The position numbers were made by a program, and so were the translations under genes. This document shows, piece by piece, positions 39,989-63,625 of a stretch of DNA of 64,000 nt. The stretch is from Clostridia bacterium. GTDB lineage: Bacteria > Bacillota > Clostridia > Lachnospirales > Anaerotignaceae. Position 1 is the first letter of the stretch, and each line of letters begins with the position of its first letter. Under the pieces are notes generated by a model that had not been told where the DNA came from, searched no databases, and worked only from the letters and a program-made list of their open reading frames with translations. The stretch is taken from positions 1-64,000 of the forward strand of contig JALCQR010000002.1 in assembly GCA_022651385.1 (NCBI GenBank). The letters are read 5' to 3'.

Positions 39989-41929
39989 TTAAAGTTTGAT
40001 ATCGTAATACTTCATTTTGTTCCATAGCGTCGAACGGCTTATGCCCAAATATTCGGCTGTTTTGGTTCTTGAAAGCCCATTCATTTTAAGAGCCTTTATT
40101 ATTCTTTTCTTTTCCCATCCTTTGTCACTTAAATCCGGACTTTCATCATCTTCATAAAGGCCGGTATGTCTTATTTCCTCAGAATCATCTCCTATACTGC
40201 GGCTTATCTCTGAAAAAAGAGCAGTTGTGTTTATATGACTGTTTTTAAGCATTACGTTAAGCCTTTCTATCATATTTTGCAGCTCACGTATATTGCCTTT
40301 CATTTCATGTTTTTCAAGTTCTTCTATTATGCTCCACCATAAAGCCTCGTTTGCCTTATAGCTTTTGTAATCGAGATTTTTCAGACAGTTTATTGCAATT
40401 TCAGGAATATCTTCTTTTCTGTCCCTGAGAGGCGGTATTTTTAATTCCAGAACATCCAATCTGTAATACAGGTCATTTCTGAAATTTCCCTTCTCAACTT
40501 CATTTTTAAGGTCCCTGTTTGTGGCTGAAATTACACGCACATCAACTGGAATCACTCTGTCACTTCCTATACGGCGTATTTCTTTTTCCTGTATTACTCT
40601 TAAAATCTGAACCTGCATCTCAAGGGGCATTTCACCTATTTCGTCAAGAAATATTGTACCCATGTGAGCCATTTCAAACATTCCCATTTTTCCGCCTTTG
40701 CTTGCTCCCGTAAAAGAGCCCTCTTCATAGCCGAAAAACTCCGCTTCAAGTAAGTTTTTCGGTATGGCGGCACAGTTTACGGCAACAAACGGCCCCCCTG
40801 CTCTCGGGCCGCTGTTATGTATACTCTGAGCAAAAAGTTCTTTTCCTGTTCCTGTCTCACCAAGTATAAGTACCGTTGAGTCGGAATTGGCATAGCTTTT
40901 AGCTACATTTTTTACCTCAGTAATAGCCTGTGAACTTCCCTTTATGTCGTCAAAAGTATATTTAGCCGAGAAGCCTTTTTTCCTTTTTATATTAAGCCTT
41001 GCATTTTTCTCATGTTCCTGTAGAACGGCTAAATCCTGAAATGTGGATACAACGCCTCTTTTCTGGCCGTTTATCACAATAGGTATTCTGTGAGTTAAAA
41101 CAGTCATGTTCGGCAGTTCAAAAACATCACCTATGTCGCCCTCATCTTTTTCCATTACTTTAATCATTTTTGTTCCTTTTACAACATTTGTTATATGTTT
41201 TCCCTCAAGACGGTCGTTTTGATCCCACCTGAGAAATTTATATACCATGTCATTCGCCGCTATTATTTTGCCGTTTTCATCTATGGCAAGTATAGCGTCA
41301 TTTGTAAAATTAAACACTACTTTATACTGCTCAAGCCTTAATACATTTTCACGGTTGCGCCTTTCTTCCAAATCCTGCATATCAAGTATACTTTTTGCTT
41401 TTTCAAAAGCATCGACAACTGTTTCAAGTGACGGATTAATTGTTTTGTATCTTACTCCCATTCGTCTTGCATGTTCCTCATACTCAAACGGTCCCACACA
41501 AAGTATCTTTTCAGTATACGCTTTGAAAAAAAACCTATCCTTTTCAACTTCAGTGCGATGCATTACAACATCTTCCGTTTTACAGTTCCATTTCCTTGAA
41601 AGAAGCTCGCAGTCAATATACTCGCAGTCCCTATGCAGCACACATACATATTTTTCATTTTTTATTTCAGTCCTCATATAATCTACCGTATGGTGTCTTA
41701 TATTCATAAGATAATCAGCATTTCCGCCATATATATTTCTAAGATCGGCTCCGGCAGCTATAAATAACTTAGTACCCTCATTAAGCATATCACGGCACAC
41801 AAAAAACATACTGTCTTCGTCGCAAGAGCGAACATCAGCATTTATGCCATTTTCTATGCAAAGTTTTGAAATATGCCCTGCATATCCCTGCGAAAAAGCA
41901 AGAAAGCATATTCTTTTTCTCTTTTTCAT
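39989..41929 (-). CDS. Sigma-54-dependent transcriptional activator (PrpR_N-PAS-AAA+-Fis type)
   Basis: The 646-residue activator has an N-terminal PrpR_N-like sensor (residues about 1-185), a PAS domain (about 205-310), the AAA+ domain with Walker A GETGTGKE (357-364), a sigma-54-contacting loop GSFTGA (404-409, a variant of GAFTGA) and Walker B IFLDE (426-430). A Fis-type helix-turn-helix (TKTAEYLGISRSTLWNKMK) ends the protein. It drives open-complex formation at -24/-12 promoters in response to a small molecule bound by the N-terminal domain. ATG at 41929 follows GAGAGGATAGC. It diverges from the glycerol-dehydrogenase-like gene, but no -24/-12 element lies between them. The only good sigma-54 promoter I found is upstream of panB at 60.0 kb. 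Confidence 0.92.
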   Translation of the reverse strand: MKKRKRICFLAFSQGYAGHISKLCIENGINADVRSCDEDSMFFVCRDMLNEGTKLFIAAGADLRNIYGGNADYLMNIRHHTVDYMRTEIKNEKYVCVLHRDCEYIDCELLSRKWNCKTEDVVMHRTEVEKDRFFFKAYTEKILCVGPFEYEEHARRMGVRYKTINPSLETVVDAFEKAKSILDMQDLEERRNRENVLRLEQYKVVFNFTNDAILAIDENGKIIAANDMVYKFLRWDQNDRLEGKHITNVVKGTKMIKVMEKDEGDIGDVFELPNMTVLTHRIPIVINGQKRGVVSTFQDLAVLQEHEKNARLNIKRKKGFSAKYTFDDIKGSSQAITEVKNVAKSYANSDSTVLILGETGTGKELFAQSIHNSGPRAGGPFVAVNCAAIPKNLLEAEFFGYEEGSFTGASKGGKMGMFEMAHMGTIFLDEIGEMPLEMQVQILRVIQEKEIRRIGSDRVIPVDVRVISATNRDLKNEVEKGNFRNDLYYRLDVLELKIPPLRDRKEDIPEIAINCLKNLDYKSYKANEALWWSIIEELEKHEMKGNIRELQNMIERLNVMLKNSHINTTALFSEISRSIGDDSEEIRHTGLYEDDESPDLSDKGWEKKRIIKALKMNGLSRTKTAEYLGISRSTLWNKMKYYDIKL

Positions 41930-42172
41930 GCTATCCTCTCCTACAGTATAAATATGATTTATTATAACATAAATCGACATTTTTTTCTCTGCAAAAAATC
42001 TTTTTCATAATTAAATCATTTATTTAGTTAAAAATTGTTTATTGAAAATATTACCTAATTGATTTATAATATGTAATATATTGAGTAAACTATGTATTTG
42101 ACAGTTTTTCGATATACTGCATATTTTGTGCAAAATCCCATAAAATACATGAATTAAAGGAGTGTTAAAAAA

Positions 42173-54910: not shown

Positions 54911-55540
54911 TTATTTCAATATGTCAACAACTTTTGCATATACCCTGTCACAGGCATCAGCTCCGTCGTTTACAAGTTTGTTTATTCTGTCTCTTGTTTC
55001 ATTTACAAATTTTTCATCTTTAATCGAATTGAGATTTACATCCACGTTAAGTTTTGCGCTGTAAATAGCGGCTTTGAGGAACTGAACACCGCATCCAACA
55101 TCGCTTATTATAATTTTTGTGGATATATCGACAAGTTCTTCCTGAAGCATTATAGCTTCATAAATATATTCAACCATTTTTATAGGTCCTGAAGCAGCAA
55201 CTATAAGGCATTTTTGAAGTACCTTTTCCTTTTCAGCCTGCTGCTCAGGTGTATCCTTAGGCATACCATACGCTTTTGAAAGCGGCTTAAAATTTTCGGC
55301 GTCTTCGTCAATAAGAGCAAGAAGCTTTTTGTAAAGTTCACAGCTTTTATCGATTATTTCCTGGTGCTTAGCTTCCATACCAAGAAATTTTTTCTTGCCT
55401 ATAGAGTAGTTTCCAACCATTGAACCCAAGGCCGAACCAAGAGCGCCCACAAGAGCTGCAACTCCTCCTCCGCCCGGTACAGGTTCTTTTGAAGCAAGTT
55501 TTGCAACAAATTCTTCACATGTAACTGTGCTTAATTTCAT
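54911..55540 (-). CDS. fchA: Methenyltetrahydrofolate cyclohydrolase (FchA/FTCD family)
   Basis: The 209-residue all-helical protein belongs to the formimidoyltetrahydrofolate cyclodeaminase family (PF04961). Stand-alone members in acetogens and clostridia act as methenyl-THF cyclohydrolase. EPVPGGGGVAALVGALGSAL (glycine-rich folate loop) and NVDVNLNSIKDEKF are typical. ATG at 55540 lies 7 nt from AAGGAG; an ATG two codons earlier is only 1 nt from it. It closes the panB-fhs-folD-folT-fchA unit. FolD also has cyclohydrolase activity, so the function is duplicated. No terminator is obvious downstream. Confidence 0.88.
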   Translation of the reverse strand: MKLSTVTCEEFVAKLASKEPVPGGGGVAALVGALGSALGSMVGNYSIGKKKFLGMEAKHQEIIDKSCELYKKLLALIDEDAENFKPLSKAYGMPKDTPEQQAEKEKVLQKCLIVAASGPIKMVEYIYEAIMLQEELVDISTKIIISDVGCGVQFLKAAIYSAKLNVDVNLNSIKDEKFVNETRDRINKLVNDGADACDRVYAKVVDILK

Positions 55541-55553
55541 TTTCATGCTCCTT

Positions 55554-56102
55554 TTATTTCTCAAATAATCCTGTTTTTAATTTAACTGTCTCAACAGTCT
55601 TGCATACAAGACAAAGAAGCGCAACATTTATAGGAAACATTGCAATATTTTTTATTATTCTTACCATAGTAAAAAGCTGTGTGCCATACATCATATTAAG
55701 CCAAATAGGTGTAAGGATAAAATTAATTATAACTGTTTCTGTAAGAGATGCCGCTATAATTCTTTTAAGAGTTATTTTCTTTTTGTATAAAAACAGCCCG
55801 AAAATAAATCCAGAAAGGAAACGGCTTAATGTAAATCCAATAAAGAAAGGTCCGTTAGGCTTTACAAAATATCCTATAACATCTGCAATCATACCCACAA
55901 TTCCTCCCATTACAGGACCATACAGCATTCCTGCAACAGCAAGAGCCAAAAATCCAAATGAAATCTCGAGTATGTTGCTTACAACTATTCTGACAAATGC
56001 TAATATTACGCCAAGTGCAGTAAGCATTGCTCCGCCTGTCATTGATTTAACATTTCTAATCTCGGCAGAAGACTCTCTTATACCAGTTATTATGTTGTTC
56101 AT
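55554..56102 (-). CDS. folT: ECF transporter S component, folate family (FolT-like)
   Basis: The 182-residue integral membrane protein has six predicted helices and the S-component features FGFLALAVAGMLYGPVMGGIVGMIADVIGYFV and FTLSRFLSGFIFGLFLYKKK (shown in part across residues 50-120). The folate-type ECF family fits both sequence pattern and context: it lies between folD and fchA. The shared ECF energising module (EcfA-A'-T) is not in the window. ATG at 56102 has AGGAGGCAATATA upstream; the open frame extends 40 codons further, but that region contains the leader hairpin. Confidence 0.82.
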   Translation of the reverse strand: MNNIITGIRESSAEIRNVKSMTGGAMLTALGVILAFVRIVVSNILEISFGFLALAVAGMLYGPVMGGIVGMIADVIGYFVKPNGPFFIGFTLSRFLSGFIFGLFLYKKKITLKRIIAASLTETVIINFILTPIWLNMMYGTQLFTMVRIIKNIAMFPINVALLCLVCKTVETVKLKTGLFEK

Positions 56103-56220
56103 TATATTGCCTCCTAATTTGTCTTTAATTGTTTTTCGCCAACTTAAATACAAATGTCCATTAAGGATAAGGACTACGCAATATACTATTGTGGACCTTA
56201 CAGGCATACTCACTGCAACC

Positions 56221-56252
56221 ACTTTAGCTGTTTGTCCGTCAACAGTTAAAGT
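56221..56252 (-). promoter_or_regulatory. Leader hairpin before folT
   Basis: ACTTTAACTGTT and AAACAGCTAAAGT (minus strand) form a 12-bp stem with one mismatch around GACGGAC. There is no T-run after it. The 350-bp region 56103-56452 therefore holds this hairpin and one short ORF. I looked for the tetrahydrofolate riboswitch consensus and did not find it. Confidence 0.4.
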
Positions 56253-56452: not shown

Positions 56453-57310
56453 TTATGCAATACCATTTATCTGTTTGCATGCTTTTACAACATGTTTAGC
56501 AAGAACCGATGTTGTAACCGAGCCTACACCTGCCGGCACAGGAGTTATCATTGATGCTTTTTCAACGCATTCATTAAAAGCTACGTCTCCGCAGAGTTTG
56601 CCCTCAGAGTTTACATTAATGCCTACATCAATTACAACCGCTCCGTCTTTTATAAAGTTGCCTTTTACCATTTCTGCACGTCCTACGGCAGCAACCACTA
56701 CATCATTCTGACGGCATACGGCAGGAAGGTCGCTTGTACGGCTGTGGCAGATTGTAACAGTTGCGTTTTTGCCTAAAAGAAGCATTGCAAGAGGTTTTCC
56801 CACAACCATGCTTCTGCCTACAACAGCTACGTTTTTGCCCTTTAAATCAACGCCGTAGTAATCAAGTATTTCAACACATGCCTGAGGTGTGCATGGCGGA
56901 TAGCCTGTCTTATCACCTTCAAAAATCTTTTCAGCATTAAGCGGATTCATGCAGTCGATATCCTTAACAGGGTCCACTATAAATTTAATTTCTTCCATAT
57001 CAAGCTGTTTTGGAAGCGGTCTGAAAAGAAGTATGCCGTGAACGGAAGCGTCGTCGTTTACGGCTTTAAGTGCCTTAACAAAGTCAGTTTGGCAAATATC
57101 GGCAGGAAGCTCAAGAACTTCAGCTGCTATTCCGCATTTTTCCATTCTTTTAAGAGCTCCTCTTTCATATGAAAGGTCGTCTTCTCTTGCGCCTACTCTG
57201 ACAATTTTAAGTGTTGGCTCAATTCCCTTTGCTTTTAAACTTTCAACATCAGTTTTAAGTGTTTCGGTTATCGCGTCAGCAACCGGCTTGCCTTTAATAA
57301 TTTCACCCAT
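56453..57310 (-). CDS. folD: Bifunctional methylene-THF dehydrogenase/methenyl-THF cyclohydrolase
   Basis: FolD interconverts methylene-, methenyl- and 10-formyl-THF with NADP. The 285-residue protein has the expected YERGALKRMEKCGI region with its catalytic tyrosine but a shifted lysine context, DPVKDIDCMNPLN, PCTPQACVEIL, GRSMVVGKPLAMLLL (Rossmann loop) and VIDVGINVN. The typical YxxxK lysine appears as Y-ERGALK, so cyclohydrolase activity may differ; this would fit a separate FchA downstream. ATG at 57310 follows AAGGAGAATAAAA. It lies 77 bp after fhs. Confidence 0.9.
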   Translation of the reverse strand: MGEIIKGKPVADAITETLKTDVESLKAKGIEPTLKIVRVGAREDDLSYERGALKRMEKCGIAAEVLELPADICQTDFVKALKAVNDDASVHGILLFRPLPKQLDMEEIKFIVDPVKDIDCMNPLNAEKIFEGDKTGYPPCTPQACVEILDYYGVDLKGKNVAVVGRSMVVGKPLAMLLLGKNATVTICHSRTSDLPAVCRQNDVVVAAVGRAEMVKGNFIKDGAVVIDVGINVNSEGKLCGDVAFNECVEKASMITPVPAGVGSVTTSVLAKHVVKACKQINGIA

Positions 57311-57338
57311 TTTTATTCTCCTTATAGTATTATTACTA

Positions 57339-57364
57339 CAGCGAAGCAAAAAAGCGCTTCGCTG
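57339..57364 (-). promoter_or_regulatory. Intercistronic hairpin between fhs and folD
   Basis: CAGCGAAGC and GCTTCGCTG form a perfect 9-bp stem around 8 nt. No T-run follows on the minus strand, so it more likely affects mRNA stability or gene dosage within the operon than termination. Confidence 0.45.
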
Positions 57365-57387: not shown

Positions 57388-59073
57388 TTAGAATAAACCT
57401 GAAATCTTGCCGTTTACATCAACATCAATCTTTTCAGCGGCTGGAACCTTTGGAAGTCCAGGCATCTTCATTATTGTACCTGTAAGAGCAACAATAAATC
57501 CGGCGCCTGCTGAAACTGTAAGGTCTCTTATTGTAATTCTGAATCCTGTAGGTCTGCCGAGCTTTGTCTGGTCATCTGTAAGTGAGTATTGGTTCTTTGC
57601 CATACAAATCGGAAGATTGCCAAAACCAAGTTTTTCAAGTTCCTTGATTATCTTATTTGCGGCAGGAGTATAATCTACGCCGTCAGCACCATAAACCTTA
57701 GTGCAGATAGCTTCAATCTTTTCCTTAATTGAAAGGTTTGTATCATAAACATAAGTATGCTCACCTTTGTTGTTTTCAACAAGGTTGAGTACTTCTTTAG
57801 CAAGCTCAATACCGCCTTCGCTGCCCTTAGCCCAAACTTCTGAAAGAGCAACATTTACACCAAGTTCGTTGCACTTTTTCTCAACAAGGTCAAGCTCTGC
57901 CTTTGTATCTGTTGGGAATGCGTTGATTGCGACAACAGCAGGAAGTCCATAAACCTTTGTAACATTTTCAACATGTTTAAGAAGGTTAGGAATACCTTTT
58001 TCAAGAGCAGCAAGGTTTTCATTGTTAAGTTCTGCCTTTGGAACACCGCCGTTATATTTAAGTGCTCTTACTGTAGCAACAATAACAGCTGCCTTTGGTT
58101 TAAGACCTGTCTGGCGGCACTTGATATCAATGAATTTTTCAGCACCAAGGTCAGCACCGAAACCAGCCTCTGTTATAACATAATCTGCAATCTTTGAAGC
58201 CATCTTAGTAGCTATAACGCTGTTGCAGCCATGAGCAATATTTGCGAAAGGACCGCCGTGGATAAATGTAGGTGTGCCTTCAAGGGTCTGAACAAGGTTT
58301 GGCTTAAGGGCATCTTTAAGAAGAGCAGCCATAGCTCCCTGAGCCTTAATATCTCCGCATGTTACAGGCTCGCCTTTTCTGTTGTAAGCTACAACCATCT
58401 TAGCAAGTCTTTCTTTTAAATCAATTATGTCGTTTGAAAGGCAGAATACAGCCATAATTTCAGAAGCAACTGTAATATCAAAGCCATCCTGACGAGGAAC
58501 ACCGTCAACTTTTGCACCAAGACCATCGACAATGTTTCTGAGCTGTCTGTCGTTCATATCAACTGCTCTTCTCCAAACGATTCTCTTAAGGTCTATGTCA
58601 AGAGCATTGCCCTGATGAATATGGTTATCAAGCATTGCTGCAAGAAGGTTGTTTGCTGCTCCGATGGCATGGAAATCACCTGTAAAGTGAAGGTTTATGT
58701 CTTCCATAGGAACTACCTGTGAATATCCGCCGCCTGCTGCACCGCCTTTTATACCAAAGACAGGTCCAAGTGAAGGCTCTCTTAAAGCAATCATTGTCTT
58801 TTTGCCCAATTTATTAAGTGCATCTCCAAGACCGATTGTTGTTGTTGTTTTTCCTTCTCCGGCTGGCGTCGGGTTGATAGCTGTTACAAGGATAAGCTTT
58901 GCATCTTCATTATCTTTAAGCTCGTTCTGCAAATATCTGTAGTCGATTTTAGCCTTATATTTGCCATAGTTCTCTACATATTTGTCAGGAATACCAACTT
59001 TATCAGCTATGTTGTTGATAACCTGCATCTCAGCTTTCTGAGCAATTTCAATGTCTGTTAAAAATTCTGCCAT
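57388..59073 (-). CDS. fhs: Formate-tetrahydrofolate ligase
   Basis: Fhs activates formate to 10-formyl-THF with ATP and, in purine- and amino-acid-fermenting clostridia, runs in reverse to make ATP. The 561-residue protein has the P-loop [18 protein letters not shown] (about 68-85), [38 protein letters not shown] and a C-terminal [23 protein letters not shown] precedes the ATG. It lies 63 bp after panB and upstream of folD, in the sigma-54-controlled unit. Confidence 0.96.
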
Positions 59074-59136: not shown

Positions 59137-59967
59137 TTATTTAAGATTTTCAATGCCTTCTATCTTAGCATTGTACTGAGTAGCTTCGTTAGGGAAAGTA
59201 CGAGCATTTGATTCCTTAACATATTCGTTGTAAGCACCAATGATAGTAGTATGCAAATCCGCAAATTTCTTTACGAATTTCGGAACCCATTCATTCATGC
59301 CCAGCATATCCTGAGCAACAAGAACCTGCATATCACAGCTTGCGCCGGCGCCTATGCCCATAGTAGGAATTGTAAGTTTTTCCGAAATAGCTTTTGCAAG
59401 CATTGCAGGAATACCTTCCAAAACAACCATAAAAGCTCCAGCTTCCTGAACAGCTCTTGCGGAGTCAAGCAGTTCCTGTGCAGCCTGTAAGCTCTTGCCC
59501 TGAACCTTAAATCCGCCCATCATAGCAGCAGACTGAGGTGTAAGACCAATATGCGCACATACTGGTATACCTGCTTTAACAATTGCTTTAATAACAGGAG
59601 CAAAGTCTGTGCCGCCCTCAAGTTTAATGCAATCACATCCGCCTTCCGCAAAAAGCCTGCTTGCGTTTCTTATAGCATCTTCAACAGAAACGTTGTATGA
59701 GCCAAAAGGCATATCTCCAATTACAAATGTGTTCGGAGCGCCTTTTACAACATGTTTTGTATGATAAATCATGTCTTCAAGTGTAACTCCAACTGTTCCG
59801 TTGTAACCAAGCATTGTCATGCCGAGTGAGTCGCCGACAAGTATCATGTCTATATCGCTTTCATCGACAAGTTTGGCGTTTGTGTAGTCATAACAAGTAA
59901 TCATTGTTGCAACTTTGTCTCCGCCTTTTAAGGCCATGATTCCAGGTACTGTAATTTTCTTTTTCAT
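59137..59967 (-). CDS. panB: 3-Methyl-2-oxobutanoate hydroxymethyltransferase (PanB)
   Basis: PanB adds a hydroxymethyl group from methylene-THF to 2-ketoisovalerate to give ketopantoate, and the reaction is reversible. The 276-residue TIM barrel shows MITCYDYTNAKLVDE, LVGDSLGMTMLGY (Mg-binding aspartate), MPFGSYN, KLEGG, CAHIGLTPQS, and TMGIGAGASCDMQVLVAQDMLG, all conserved. GGGGAGGAACTAAATA precedes the ATG. It is the first gene of the unit with fhs, folD, folT and fchA, enzymes that make or consume its one-carbon partner. panC and panD are absent. A sigma-54 promoter lies about 64-79 bp upstream. Confidence 0.95.
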   Translation of the reverse strand: MKKKITVPGIMALKGGDKVATMITCYDYTNAKLVDESDIDMILVGDSLGMTMLGYNGTVGVTLEDMIYHTKHVVKGAPNTFVIGDMPFGSYNVSVEDAIRNASRLFAEGGCDCIKLEGGTDFAPVIKAIVKAGIPVCAHIGLTPQSAAMMGGFKVQGKSLQAAQELLDSARAVQEAGAFMVVLEGIPAMLAKAISEKLTIPTMGIGAGASCDMQVLVAQDMLGMNEWVPKFVKKFADLHTTIIGAYNEYVKESNARTFPNEATQYNAKIEGIENLK

Positions 59968-60030
59968 TATTTAGTTCCTCCCCAAAAATAAATATGATGT
60001 TTTAAATGCTTACCCTGTTATATTTATAGT

Positions 60031-60046
60031 AGCAAACAGTGTGCCA
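60031..60046 (-). promoter_or_regulatory. Sigma-54 (-24/-12) promoter of panB-fhs-folD-folT-fchA
   Basis: The minus strand reads TTGGCACACTGTTTGCT. It has the -24 box TGGCAC (60046-60041), 5 bp, then the -12 box TTGCT (60035-60031), and the invariant GG and GC are 10 bp apart, as in the family consensus. Transcription would start near 60020, about 53 nt before the panB start codon. The match is seen directly; use in the cell is inferred. Confidence 0.8.
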
Positions 60047-60239
60047 AAAATAAAGTATTTAATCAAAAACAATCGAAACTTGTAAAAAAACAAAGTGGAA
60101 TGTTATATAGTACCAAAAATAGTGTAACCAAATCAAAGTAAAATATTAAAAATTACCATTAAATATATGAACTGTATCCGGCAATATCGTTTAAAAACTC
60201 TGATGCTAAAATAAGATTGTTTTAAATTGTCCATTGTCT

Positions 60240-60267
60240 ATTGTGTTTAAACATATTTAAACACAAT
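60240..60267. promoter_or_regulatory. 12-4-12 perfect inverted repeat, probable enhancer site for a sigma-54 activator
   Basis: ATTGTGTTTAAA (60240-60251), CATA, and TTTAAACACAAT (60256-60267) form a perfect dyad about 195 bp upstream of the -24 box, the usual position and form of an upstream activator sequence. A degenerate half-site ATTGT-TTTAAA is at 60216-60226. The rest of the 446-bp region 59968-60413 is very AT-rich, with no gene and the terminator of the preceding operon at its right end. Confidence 0.6.
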
Positions 60268-60338
60268 AATATATTTCAATTGTTTTTAATAATATGATAA
60301 ATTATTTTTTATTATTATTTTATTTTTTTTAAAAAATA

Positions 60339-60388
60339 AAAACCCAATATCTTCAAGTATTTCTATGTATTGAAAATATTTGGGTTTT
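60339..60388 (-). terminator. Terminator of the acid-sugar operon
   Basis: AAAACCCA (60339-60346) pairs with TGGGTTTT (60381-60388), extended by ATAT-TTCAA pairing with one bulge. On the minus strand it is followed by TATTTTTT, 25 nt past the kinase stop. Confidence 0.75.
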
Positions 60389-60413
60389 TTATGTTTTATA
60401 TTTTATTTGTTTT

Positions 60414-61850
60414 TTAATTATCACTTACACCCATCAAAACCTCAACTGCTTCTCTGAGTGTGCTAACTTCTCCAACGTTTCCAGGGAAAATAACATATGG
60501 CATGCGAGGAAATTTACTTTCTTCTCCTGTTATCCAAACAGGAATACCCGGTTTTATCTGTCCCATTACAGTTGCCTTTTTAACTTTTAATGCCTTTGTC
60601 CCTACATCGCTTGATGTTATGCCGCCTTTGGCTACTATAAACTTAGGTTTAATTTTTAGGTCTCCTATTACTTTTACAACAGCATTTGAAATAGCCACAG
60701 ACGCCTCAAGTATTTTATCTTTATCATCTGTGTCAAGCTTAACAACTTCGCGGCTTGTGTATACACATACGGATTTTCCCTCATTTATATACTCTTCAGC
60801 CTCAGCAATCACTTTTTTAACTTCGTCATCAAGTCCGCCCTTTTCAAGAACACGGGCAGCATGAAATTCAATAAATTTAAGAGGCCTTTTAGAGTTTTTA
60901 AGCTCTTCAAGCTGCATAGTCGTCTTTTTTACATGAGAGCCTATGAGAACTATTCCGCCGTTTTTGCTGTCTGAAACAAGCTCGTTATGTTTGAGCAAAG
61001 CCTTATCCGGCACACCACCCAAAACTTTTGTAATGGCAGCCGCGGACCTGAACATAAATTCTTTGCCTTCCGCAACAGCTCTGCAAAAAGCAATTGCAAA
61101 TATTTTAATGTCTATATAATCGACGGCGTTTACAACTATTTTATTAAAATTTTTAACAGCCATAAGCTGATTTGTTATCTTTTCAATCTCAAGATTTCTG
61201 ATATCGTCAAGAGATATACAAGTTACATCTTCGGCTTTAAATTTTCCGGCTGTTTTTTCCTCAACATAATCCGGAAGAAACGAAGATTTATAGCCAAATG
61301 TCTTATCCTTTGCAAATTCAGTCATTCCGGCAGGAGTAAGCATGTTTCCTTCTTTTACATAATGAATATTGTTTATTGTGTACCTTCCTCCCTCTTTAAA
61401 GAAAGGAAGCATTATTTCTCCGTCGAATCTCTTATTTGTGACCTTTTCAATATCTTCTTTTAAAATAGCTGTTTCAATAGGATAATGGCCTCTCAAAGTG
61501 GAATCGCTTCTTGATATAATTATGTAGTCCCTGCCTGTAATTTTAGAAGCCTTAATTAAATTCTCAGCAATCTCATGATGCGCCTTTGTTGTCTGAGACA
61601 TTGTAAATCCTCTTGAATTTGTGAGCACAAAAAATATACTTTTATCTTCGTTAAATCCCTGTACCAATGTATCAACTTTCCAATCGGTATATACTGAGAC
61701 ATTGTTTACAGTCTGTACGCCTGTCGGGTCATCATCAAGCACAACTATTTTTCTGCCGAGACTATTTAAAGAATCGGCAAGCATTGTTTCCACTTTTTCA
61801 GTATCAACGGCTTTTACATCCGAAAGCACACTAATGTTTAAAGGTTCCAT
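60414..61850 (-). CDS. Four-carbon acid sugar kinase family protein (DUF1537)
   Basis: The 478-residue protein has the N-terminal acid-sugar-binding domain (IVVLDDDPTGVQTVNNVSVYTDW, here residues about 33-55, and SRSDSTLRGHYPIET) and the C-terminal nucleotide-binding domain (PKFIVAKGGITSSDVG, then ITGEESKFPRMPYVIFPGNVG). DUF1537 enzymes such as OtnK and DtnK phosphorylate threonate, erythronate or related acids. ATG at 61850 follows AGGAGAG; the open frame extends 19 codons further without a site. It is the third enzyme after an aldolase and a dehydrogenase in one transcript, matching oxidation, phosphorylation and cleavage steps. Confidence 0.88.
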   Translation of the reverse strand: MEPLNISVLSDVKAVDTEKVETMLADSLNSLGRKIVVLDDDPTGVQTVNNVSVYTDWKVDTLVQGFNEDKSIFFVLTNSRGFTMSQTTKAHHEIAENLIKASKITGRDYIIISRSDSTLRGHYPIETAILKEDIEKVTNKRFDGEIMLPFFKEGGRYTINNIHYVKEGNMLTPAGMTEFAKDKTFGYKSSFLPDYVEEKTAGKFKAEDVTCISLDDIRNLEIEKITNQLMAVKNFNKIVVNAVDYIDIKIFAIAFCRAVAEGKEFMFRSAAAITKVLGGVPDKALLKHNELVSDSKNGGIVLIGSHVKKTTMQLEELKNSKRPLKFIEFHAARVLEKGGLDDEVKKVIAEAEEYINEGKSVCVYTSREVVKLDTDDKDKILEASVAISNAVVKVIGDLKIKPKFIVAKGGITSSDVGTKALKVKKATVMGQIKPGIPVWITGEESKFPRMPYVIFPGNVGEVSTLREAVEVLMGVSDN

Positions 61851-61869
61851 TGTTTTAAGTCTCTCCTGT

Positions 61870-62766
61870 TTATATTCTTTTAACTTCAACTCCGGCAAGT
61901 CTTTCAAAAAATTTCACATATCCGCAGTGGTCATCCATATATCCTCCTGCTACCTTGCATGACTGCTGTATTTCAAAAAGCAATGCTGTAAGAGGCATAG
62001 GAGAATCTATCTGATGAGCTGTGTCAAGTACGTTTTTTATATCTTTGCTGTTAACTTTTATGGTTCCTCCCGGCTTGAAGTTTCTGTCAAGAATCATAGG
62101 CACTTTATCATGGAGCACCTGGCTTCCGGCAAGGCCACCTTTAATAGCGTTATAAACTTTTTCAGGGTCCACTCCGGCTTTGGCTGCAAATGTGAAAGCC
62201 TCGCCTACTGTGGCAATGTTTAAGTTAACAATAGCCTGATTTACAAGCTTTGTAACAGAGCCGCTTCCAGTACCGCCTATGAGCACAGCCGAACCTCCCA
62301 GGATATCAAAATACGGCTTAACAGCGTTAAAATCTTCTTCTTCGGCGCCTACCATTATTGAAAGAGTGCCGTTAATTGCTCCGGGTTCTCCTCCTGAAAC
62401 AGGAGCATCAATAAATTTTACACCTGTTTTGGCAAGTTTTTCGGCATGGTCTTTGCTTTGGCCCGAAGTTTCGGAGCTGAAATCAACAAAAATCGTGCCA
62501 GGCTTCATTGTTTTTGCAAGGCCGCCTTCTCCAAAAAGTATGTTGTCAACTATGCCTGCCGAAGGCAGTATGCACATTATGACTTTGCACTCGGCACCAA
62601 TAGTCTCTTTGTCGGCAAATTTTACAAGTCCCTTAGAGGCAGTTTCAATCTCTTTTGCTATATTTTCATCCAAATCGTTTACCATTACTTCTAATCCGGC
62701 CTTGTATAAATTGCTAACCATAGGTTTTCCCATTATGCCAAGTCCTATAAATCCAACTTTCTCCAT
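61870..62766 (-). CDS. Beta-hydroxyacid dehydrogenase (GarR/LtnD family)
   Basis: The 298-residue NAD(P)-dependent enzyme has GFIGLGIMGKPMVSNL at the N-terminus, the substrate-binding DAPVSGGEPGAING (about 123-136) and the catalytic lysine in GSGSVTKLVNQ. The family includes tartronate semialdehyde reductase and L-threonate 2-dehydrogenase (LtnD). Beside a DUF1537 kinase the latter role is the better guess. GAGAGGATGTTAATA precedes the ATG at 62766. It is 16 bp from the aldolase gene. Confidence 0.88.
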   Translation of the reverse strand: MEKVGFIGLGIMGKPMVSNLYKAGLEVMVNDLDENIAKEIETASKGLVKFADKETIGAECKVIMCILPSAGIVDNILFGEGGLAKTMKPGTIFVDFSSETSGQSKDHAEKLAKTGVKFIDAPVSGGEPGAINGTLSIMVGAEEEDFNAVKPYFDILGGSAVLIGGTGSGSVTKLVNQAIVNLNIATVGEAFTFAAKAGVDPEKVYNAIKGGLAGSQVLHDKVPMILDRNFKPGGTIKVNSKDIKNVLDTAHQIDSPMPLTALLFEIQQSCKVAGGYMDDHCGYVKFFERLAGVEVKRI

Positions 62767-62782
62767 TATTAACATCCTCTCA

Positions 62783-63625
62783 TTAGTTTCTGTAAAAAAG
62801 CCTGATATATTCGCTTACGGATTCACTTACAAACTCAGTTTCCAAAAGTGCCAGTTTTGAAAGATGTATATTTGGTTCATCTTCAATTGCTTTATACATT
62901 TTTCTAACCGTATAGCGCGATATTTCAGTATTTACATTTATTTTGCAAATTCCGTTTTTAATACAGTCAATCAGTGTTTTCTTAGGTGTTCCGCTTCCCC
63001 CATGCAAAACAAGAGGAATATCAGTTGCCGCGTTAATTTCCTTTAAAATGTCAATCCTTATGTTCGGCTCGCCCTTATACATTCCATGCACGGTGCCTAT
63101 AGATACAGCAAGAGCATCAATGTTTGTTCTCTCAGCAAATTCGGCGGCACTTGAAGGATTAGTAAATGCTTGTTTGCTGTCAATGTCTGTTTCGTTTGAG
63201 TAATCTCCAAGAGCAACTTTCCCAAGCTCGGCTTCAACTGATACGTTTTCAGCATGCGCCATGTCAACAACATCTTTTGTATTTTTTATGTTTTCCTCAA
63301 AATCAAGAGCTGAACCGTCATACATAACTGAAGTAAAACCAGCATCAATCGCAGCTTTTATTATTTTCAAATCTCTGCAATGGTCAAGATGAAGAACCGT
63401 ATCTTCAGGCATATCTTTTACCGCCTCGTCCACAATTGATTTTACACATTCCAGACTCATATTTTTCATATATGAGGCACCAAATGAAATTATGGCCGGT
63501 TTTTCAGTTATTTTTATCGCTTTACATACGCCATGAATAGTTTCATAGCTGTATACATTAAACGAACCAACAGCCCTTTTATCTATATAAGCCTTGGTAA
63601 GCAATGTTTTAAGATTTACAAGCAA
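62783..63625 (-). CDS. Class II (zinc) aldolase of the fructose/tagatose-bisphosphate family
   Basis: The 280-residue protein belongs to PF01116 (FbaA/GatY/KbaY). It has GSFNVYSYETIHGV, the zinc histidine in VLHLDHCRDL (about residue 80), VSIGTVHGMYKGEP, and the phosphate loop LVLHGGSGTPKKT with KINVNTEI. The start is TTG at 63625: GGGAGG lies 9 nt upstream and homology begins at once. In place of the class II OtnC-type (PF00596) aldolase usually paired with DUF1537 kinases, a bisphosphate-aldolase-type enzyme is present here, so the cleaved substrate is probably a keto acid phosphate or related ester. Confidence 0.88.
   Translation of the reverse strand: MLVNLKTLLTKAYIDKRAVGSFNVYSYETIHGVCKAIKITEKPAIISFGASYMKNMSLECVKSIVDEAVKDMPEDTVLHLDHCRDLKIIKAAIDAGFTSVMYDGSALDFEENIKNTKDVVDMAHAENVSVEAELGKVALGDYSNETDIDSKQAFTNPSSAAEFAERTNIDALAVSIGTVHGMYKGEPNIRIDILKEINAATDIPLVLHGGSGTPKKTLIDCIKNGICKINVNTEISRYTVRKMYKAIEDEPNIHLSKLALLETEFVSESVSEYIRLFYRN

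Follow-up and report, generated by a model that had tools for sequence, protein, structure and literature searches.

The panB operon and its predicted sigma-54 promoter

The window (the whole stretch of 64,000 nucleotides that was analysed) carries on its minus strand an operon whose genes, assigned by NCBIfam and Pfam, stand in the order panB-fhs-folD-folT-fchA. The first gene, panB (59137..59967), encodes a protein of the ketopantoate hydroxymethyltransferase family (TIGR00222 and PF02548, over cut-off), and fhs (57388..59073) a formate--tetrahydrofolate ligase (NF010030, 938 bits; cut-off 652). For folD (56453..57349) the best 25 of 31 matching families were all FolD models, none of these 25 over its own cut-off, and the true start of the gene may lie downstream of 57349. 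The fourth gene (55554..56222), whose true start is probably downstream of 56222, encodes a folT-like ECF transporter S component (TIGR04518, over cut-off). The last gene (54911..55564) encodes an fchA-like methenyl-THF cyclohydrolase, which is over the cut-off of PF04961 (213.9 bits) and under that of NF045657 (172 bits; cut-off 275). The content given in the first-pass annotation, panB, fhs, folD and fchA, agrees with these families; the folate-family transporter component was not listed there and is an additional member of the operon.

A gap of 446 bp lies 5' of panB. The gene beyond it codes for a DUF1537-type kinase (60414..61907, minus strand; NCBIfam/Pfam) and clusters with genes for a dehydrogenase (61870-62775) and a class II aldolase (62783-63625); these three probably form an operon separate from panB. 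A terminator-like hairpin region (60318..60413, minus strand; fold -17.8 kcal/mol, z -4.9), in which the consensus scan called no terminator, is found 3' of the DUF1537 gene, between this gene and the promoter described below. The DUF1537 gene is directly upstream of panB in seven of the 12 named relatives; other or no genes take its place in L056, L059, L061 and L063, and for L053 just 1.2 kb of upstream DNA was covered. The gap following it is 99 bp in L062, as compared with 407-644 bp in six other relatives and 1078 bp in L277. A functional tie between panB and DUF1537 was considered and dropped: taking into account that the adjacency is confined to these seven relatives, and that genome G080 keeps all genes from panB to fchA and has none of the DUF1537 cluster genes beside panB, such a tie is not required.

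The gap holds, on the minus strand (60047..60031), an exact sigma-54 site, TTGGCACACTGTTTGCT, which lies 64-80 bp 5' of the panB ATG (59967). Its core, TTGGCAC-ACTGT-TTGCT, has the GG at -24 and the GC at -12 at the fixed spacing that define a sigma-54-dependent promoter, and if C60032 is taken as -12, transcription is expected to start at 60020. Scanning of the whole window with the sigma-54 pattern returned this single exact match. When up to two mismatches were allowed, the window contained 19 matches against 13.1 expected, a number reached in 7 of 100 shuffles; as such matches occur at about chance level, it is the exact match that carries the weight. In the whole genome (2,609,557 bases) TGGCACNNNNNTTGCW is matched exactly in four places, and 94 sites match it if one mismatch is accepted, compared with 27 for the reversed pattern; the 16-letter form with TTGG occurs four times and its reversed pattern once. 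The genome has one rpoN gene (E 2.6e-54), and rpoN was present in all 12 relatives included in the search, a set to which G080 did not belong.

The other three exact sites of the genome each lie in a cluster with an activator gene or an activator relic. Site C2:74617 is 5' of a gene for a PatB-type C-S lyase and adjoins the activator gene C2:75498, and site C2:151625 is 5' of a pyruvate-type 2-oxoacid oxidoreductase operon, divergent from the activator gene C2:152207. A reading of the latter operon as a ketoisovalerate oxidoreductase was rejected, the NCBIfam matches fitting pyruvate synthase better. Site C6:141018 precedes CoA-transferase genes, and some 3 kb further downstream a PAS-HTH protein is encoded. 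This 221-aa protein (L019:3229-3894, minus strand; sigma-54 site at L019:7019-7034) matches both ends of the 448-aa L205 activator (60% and 56%), and the whole AAA+ part is missing. It is either an activator relic or an antagonist; the exact box before the CoA-transferase operon is still there.

Conservation of the promoter was examined in two sets of genomes. From a scan of named genomes the best 79 of 173 confirmed PanB loci were kept, and among these 79 are 12 orthologues (L052-L063) with 79-88% identity. Fhs is found near panB in 11 of the 12, FolD in seven, FolT in seven and FchA in six, many of the stretches ending early. The exact box is present in 11 of 13 upstream regions (the window and L052-L063), compared with a mean of 0.03 and a maximum of 1 in 1000 dinucleotide shuffles. 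In the second set, 58 genomes of the family, a panB of at least 79% identity occurs in 15, own genome included; judged by contig and position, 12 of these were already among the relatives above, and two (L277 and L278) were new. L277 has the box together with an exact copy of the upstream element described below, L278 has neither. Altogether the box is exact in 12 of the 15 orthologues, and in one more, L061, it has a single mismatch and stands at -71. In L059 the box is unusually distant (-360). The promoter flanks are alike in 11 aligned upstream regions. All orthologues belong to one family and are therefore not independent, and several of their genomes are incomplete MAGs. As a control, neither the exact box nor the exact upstream element was found in any of 76 upstream regions of other PanB genes, a few of which were counted twice. 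The exact site, the rpoN gene and the boxes kept in relatives support the sigma-54 promoter proposed earlier for panB.

Upstream decamers and the candidate activator

A perfect 13-4-13 inverted repeat, the sole one of its kind in the window and never seen in 100 shuffles of it, occupies 60239-60268. It had first been described as a 12-4-12 repeat and is thus real and perfect, and slightly longer than claimed. Because relatives conserve a decamer and not the 12-4-12 dyad, the repeat is better read as two tandem decamers of the form TGTTTAAA(C/T)A, i.e. TGTTTAAAYA. These putative upstream activator sites, TGTTTAAATA and TGTTTAAACA, jointly make up the dyad (60239..60268) and are separated by 10 bp, roughly one helical turn; of the orthologues, L055 alone has such a tandem pair. 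The decamer TGTTTAAACA is exact in nine of the 13 upstream regions mentioned above (shuffle mean 0.09, maximum 2), and with one mismatch allowed it is present in 11 (mean 1.7, maximum 7). Over all 15 orthologues these counts are ten and 12; L059 has no decamer within 450 bp. Thus, the suggested enhancer-like element is conserved upstream of the promoter in the form of the decamer, and the whole dyad is not kept in relatives. Decamer and box are separated by 166-211 bp in ten genomes and by 157 bp in L277. Helical phasing of this spacing is not claimed (Rayleigh p 0.02-0.07 over ten non-independent values). The decamer occurs at seven places in the genome and its reversed pattern at six, which amounts to no genome-wide enrichment. 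The panB copy is the only one of the seven near an exact sigma-54 box, and a regulon of just one operon is therefore predicted.

The genome encodes four strong sigma-54 activators (128 to 240 bits); a further five matches, of 30 to 50 bits, are weaker and probably represent other ATPases. The likely activator of the panB operon is the product of 39989..41980 (minus strand), a gene 18 kb from panB in the window and about 28 kb from it in G001 and G003; the match between this protein and the decamers is proposed from co-occurrence. The protein has the architecture of a sigma-54 activator, with an AAA+ domain (PF00158) and a Fis-type HTH (PF02954), both over cut-off, and a GSFTGA loop, a variant still active according to the text of a clostridial survey (PMC6615313). 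About 200 N-terminal residues are without a Pfam match, and a PAS domain is matched weakly, just under the Pfam cut-off. In view of this PAS match, the earlier suggestion that an effector-sensing activator makes the operon respond to a specific substrate is plausible. The HTH tails are alike in ten of 11 activator orthologues compared; that of L214, near a contig end, is altered.

In a search of the 58 family genomes 14 scored above 740 bits for this activator, the next best scoring 451. Activator and panB occur together in 13 genomes, the activator alone in one, panB alone in two, and neither in 42 (Fisher 4.5e-10, uncorrected for shared descent). The activator is alone in G074 (88% complete), which has no close panB. 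The two genomes with panB alone are G069 (84% complete; also handled as G011 and L062) and G080 (99% complete; L278), and precisely these two panB genes have no box and no decamer within 450 bp. Conversely, in every one of the 13 panB genomes that carry the activator the box is present, exactly in 12 and with a single mismatch in the other. Loss of the boxes in relatives that keep the operon had been named as an observation that would speak against the promoter; two boxes are indeed lost, and both from genomes that also have no candidate activator. In G080, which has no activator, the sigma-54 box is replaced by a sigma-A-like TTGTAC-N18-TATAAT at -92 (to -63) of panB, so that the promoter class may have been switched naturally. 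Promoter, decamers and activator gene, together with their conservation and joint absence, can be read directly from the genomes. That the promoter is kept only with the matching activator hints that the operon degrades a specific nutrient, beyond vitamin synthesis. As a separate observation, in one relative the activator orthologue (L207:5460-7496) is split by a stop, and the panB of the same relative (L054) keeps the exact box.

An exact decamer is at or near the start of the activator gene in two of 12 genomes, in one of these inside an over-long called frame; in L209 the exact copy is 28 bp 5' of the gene. A third genome has a decamer with one mismatch near the gene, and none was found there in the window or in eight of the 11 other genomes looked at. 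With exact copies in just two genomes, autoregulation of the activator is only hinted at.

Taken together, we consider it very probable that a sigma-54 promoter with its start near 60020 and the activator from 39989-41980, acting on the tandem decamers, drive the panB operon. We infer that this enhancer-binding protein, encoded 18 kb off, would bind the two TGTTTAAAYA decamers about 200 bp upstream of the promoter, sense a small molecule and open the promoter with ATP, upon which panB-fhs-folD-folT-fchA would be transcribed from near 60020.

Activator genes often adjoin their targets, and the gene at 39989-41980 is 18 kb off, so that one of the other three activators of the genome (C2:75498, C8:96068 or C2:152207) might act on a promoter that would still be sigma-54 dependent. 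We regard this as improbable. The activator group of the window was found in all 13 box-bearing orthologue genomes, whereas low-scoring activators of the C2:152207 class are present in nine of 12 relatives including the boxless G011, the one genome for which orthology was checked. C2:75498 and C8:96068 gave few close matches among the loci sorted, and no promoter beside these other activators has an exact decamer in the genome. Even less probable is that the decamers serve a repressor and have nothing to do with sigma-54. Repressors, too, typically bind palindromes, and the L209 copy close to the activator gene would suit one, but a position 157-211 bp upstream of the box is far for simple repression and agrees with the 100-250 bp that the text of PMC6615313 gives for activator sites in clostridia; moreover, decamers and box are jointly absent in both activator-less genomes. 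Finally, a chance match with transcription from a sigma-A promoter is hardly credible: the region is A+T rich and has sigma-70-like matches at background rate (6 vs 4.5 in a consensus scan of the region), one of which overlaps the dyad on the minus strand (60279..60250), but conservation of the box far exceeds that in the control genes, and the scan found no minus-strand sigma-70-like pair between dyad and panB.

The PanB branch and the metabolic direction of the operon

The window PanB matches the panB equivalog over its full length with a score above the cut-off, and the canonical motifs, which we take to hold the catalytic residues, are present. A tree of 87 rows, with loci chosen by similarity to the window PanB, divides into 35 and 52 rows at a branch with an SH-aLRT of 94, under the 95 mark. 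All 31 panC-adjacent rows fall into the 35-row branch, and panC is beside PanB in none of the 52 rows of the branch containing the window PanB, which is thus without the panC link expected of a biosynthetic PanB. Residues specific to the group of the window PanB include M213, where 35 of 35 panC-branch rows have G. Searches with reference proteins detected no Fhs, FolD, FchA, S58, PanE, IlvD, VorB or DUF1537 within 5 kb in the 35 panC-branch rows; for DUF1537 this zero is weak, since the reference misses even the window type. Within the same distance, the 39 other rows of the window branch gave IlvD in six (four loci), PanE in five, S58 in five, Fhs in two, FolD in two, DUF1537 in two (one locus) and VorB in one, and most show none.

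Three PanBs, all of the non-panC branch, are encoded in the genome, along with PanC, PanD and a PanE homologue. At least one of the three may be biosynthetic; with PanC and PanD present one of them probably is, and a simple label of 'catabolic branch' would then be wrong. PanC was absent in seven of 24 other genomes searched (G008, G011, G012, G013, G015, G017 and G023), of which G008, G011 and G012 are MAGs 68-84% complete. PanD was found in none of 18 genomes searched, so that its absence alone says little.

We infer the metabolic direction of the operon from this context, and give about an even chance to a catabolic role, in which the PanB-family enzyme would work as a retro-aldolase. Its one-carbon unit would be passed to tetrahydrofolate, and FolD, FchA and Fhs would convert it to formate and ATP. 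We lean this way because, along with the PanB context, the clostridial sigma-54 regulons described in the text of PMC6615313 hold genes of fermentation and amino-acid catabolism. In vitro, several 2-oxo acids were supplied to the E. coli enzyme (KPHMT), and EDTA was added to stop it so that no retro-aldol reaction would occur, as described in a passage of PMC10127515.

An anabolic role has a substantial chance, if somewhat short of even. Fhs would then activate formate, FchA and FolD would reduce the product to methylene-THF for the synthesis of ketopantoate by PanB, and the sigma-54 system would answer formate or one-carbon status. The equivalog score, the canonical motifs and the PanC, PanD and PanE homologue of the genome agree with it. 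On the other hand, the genome has two further PanBs, the panC neighbours all lie in the other branch, and G011 (an 84% complete MAG) has this PanB alone, with no PanC or PanD detected. It can also be argued that vitamin flux is too small for a five-gene one-carbon module, and the published regulons cited above serve fermentation and amino-acid catabolism.

Starting from the catabolic role, a broader proposal can be put forward tentatively, as possible but doubtful: the PanB branch would consist of reverse-running catabolic one-carbon aldolases, and the activator would sense pantoate, ketopantoate or another 4-hydroxy-2-oxo acid and induce PanB together with Fhs, FolD, FchA and the folate importer, methylene-THF being turned into formate and ATP. 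Loci with S58, some also with PanE, beside such a PanB in more distant genomes where no PanC or PanD was found would represent a complete route of vitamin B5 degradation and point to a gene for pantothenase.

Several loci of related PanBs may be described here. In L078:2377-6837, the genes ahead of panB encode PanE, an OPT transporter and an S58 hydrolase. S58 and PanE are beside PanB and FolD in L100:2783-7752 and L125. A DmpA-like S58 protein is beside PanB in L079 and L081 and, by eye, in L279:2312-5918. Neither PanC nor PanD was found in the L078, L081 and L100 genomes. Such S58 (DmpA-like) and PanB loci are candidate pantothenase clusters; PanE beside PanB would also fit pantoate synthesis. 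The pantothenase protein was called unknown in a passage of a 2023 paper (PMC10393543). In the genome's own C15 contig, a second PanB copy (L161:3422-8000) is downstream of a VorB-type oxidoreductase, whose VorB scores over the cut-off as a subunit of ketoisovalerate dehydrogenase, and of a GntR-like regulator, as judged by eye. Ketoisovalerate is the product of the reverse reaction of PanB. In Sporomusa acidovorans (L126:4303-11758) IlvD, two PanBs, a D-threonate-kinase-like DUF1537 protein, a PdxA-like dehydrogenase and a LarAH10 racemase are encoded in one run, and in Lachnospiraceae bacterium NSJ-143 (L072:3510-11072) PanB is, by eye, between PLP-type enzymes and a TRAP-type transporter. 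Two further candidates were rejected. Spirochaete genes 3' of panB (L085, L086 and L169) had been taken by length for an indolepyruvate oxidoreductase; reading of L169 by eye gave a sensor kinase, a response regulator and a dicarboxylate transporter, and this support was dropped. IlvD beside some PanBs was not accepted as a sign of sugar-acid catabolism, as it passes the ordinary ilvD cut-off.

If the catabolic role is true, the vitamin-biosynthesis annotation is mis-assigned across much of the PanB branch, pantoate-like compounds feed a route by which gut-type anaerobes gain ATP, and a candidate gene for pantothenase is at hand.

Comparison with known sigma-54 systems

In the literature covered, which includes few subscription journals, searches on sigma-54 control of panB or fhs, on a reverse or catabolic PanB and on the breakdown of pantothenate brought up no report of this kind. 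In Listeria, the tables of a proteomics study (PMC3721983) list fhs with -2.14 under sigma-L and panB with -1.61 under sigma-C, and neither passage claims a sigma-54 promoter for fhs or panB. A 2025 survey (PMC12316311) predicts sigma-54 control of panD, also a pantothenate-pathway gene, in Flavobacteriia; this case differs in gene, phylum and context, and the main text has no match for panB or folate.

The best NCBIfam match of the window activator is PrdR, the activator of proline reductase (NF041552), but 408 bits against a cut-off of 795 do not indicate orthology, and the target of PrdR is unrelated. The window PanB and known PanB are alike in family score and motifs, the difference being that the former is in a separate, non-panC branch.

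The closest parallels are the clostridial sigma-54 regulons of Nie et al. 2019 (PMC6615313). Among these, 15 groups have sites of the form TGT-N10-12-ACA, as opposed to TGT-N4-ACA for the present decamer. Table 1 lists 39 activator groups, none with panB, fhs, folD or fchA as a target, and the main text is without the words pantothenate, panB and folate. As far as described there, the regulons share with the present system the TTGGCAT-N5-TTGCT type of promoter and a one-component activator with a Fis HTH and GAFTGA or GSFTGA. Also in common are upstream sites mostly 100-250 bp away and a metabolic target, and the regulons mostly consist of one operon, with some activators apart from their target. 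The clostridial sigma-54 repertoire would thus be extended by a PanB/folate one-carbon operon together with a new group of activators, with an apparent switch of promoter class where the activator is missing; activator, sites and promoter are all predicted and testable. In its promoter, activator architecture and spacing the system follows the known clostridial pattern, and the metabolic role behind the operon is possibly new.
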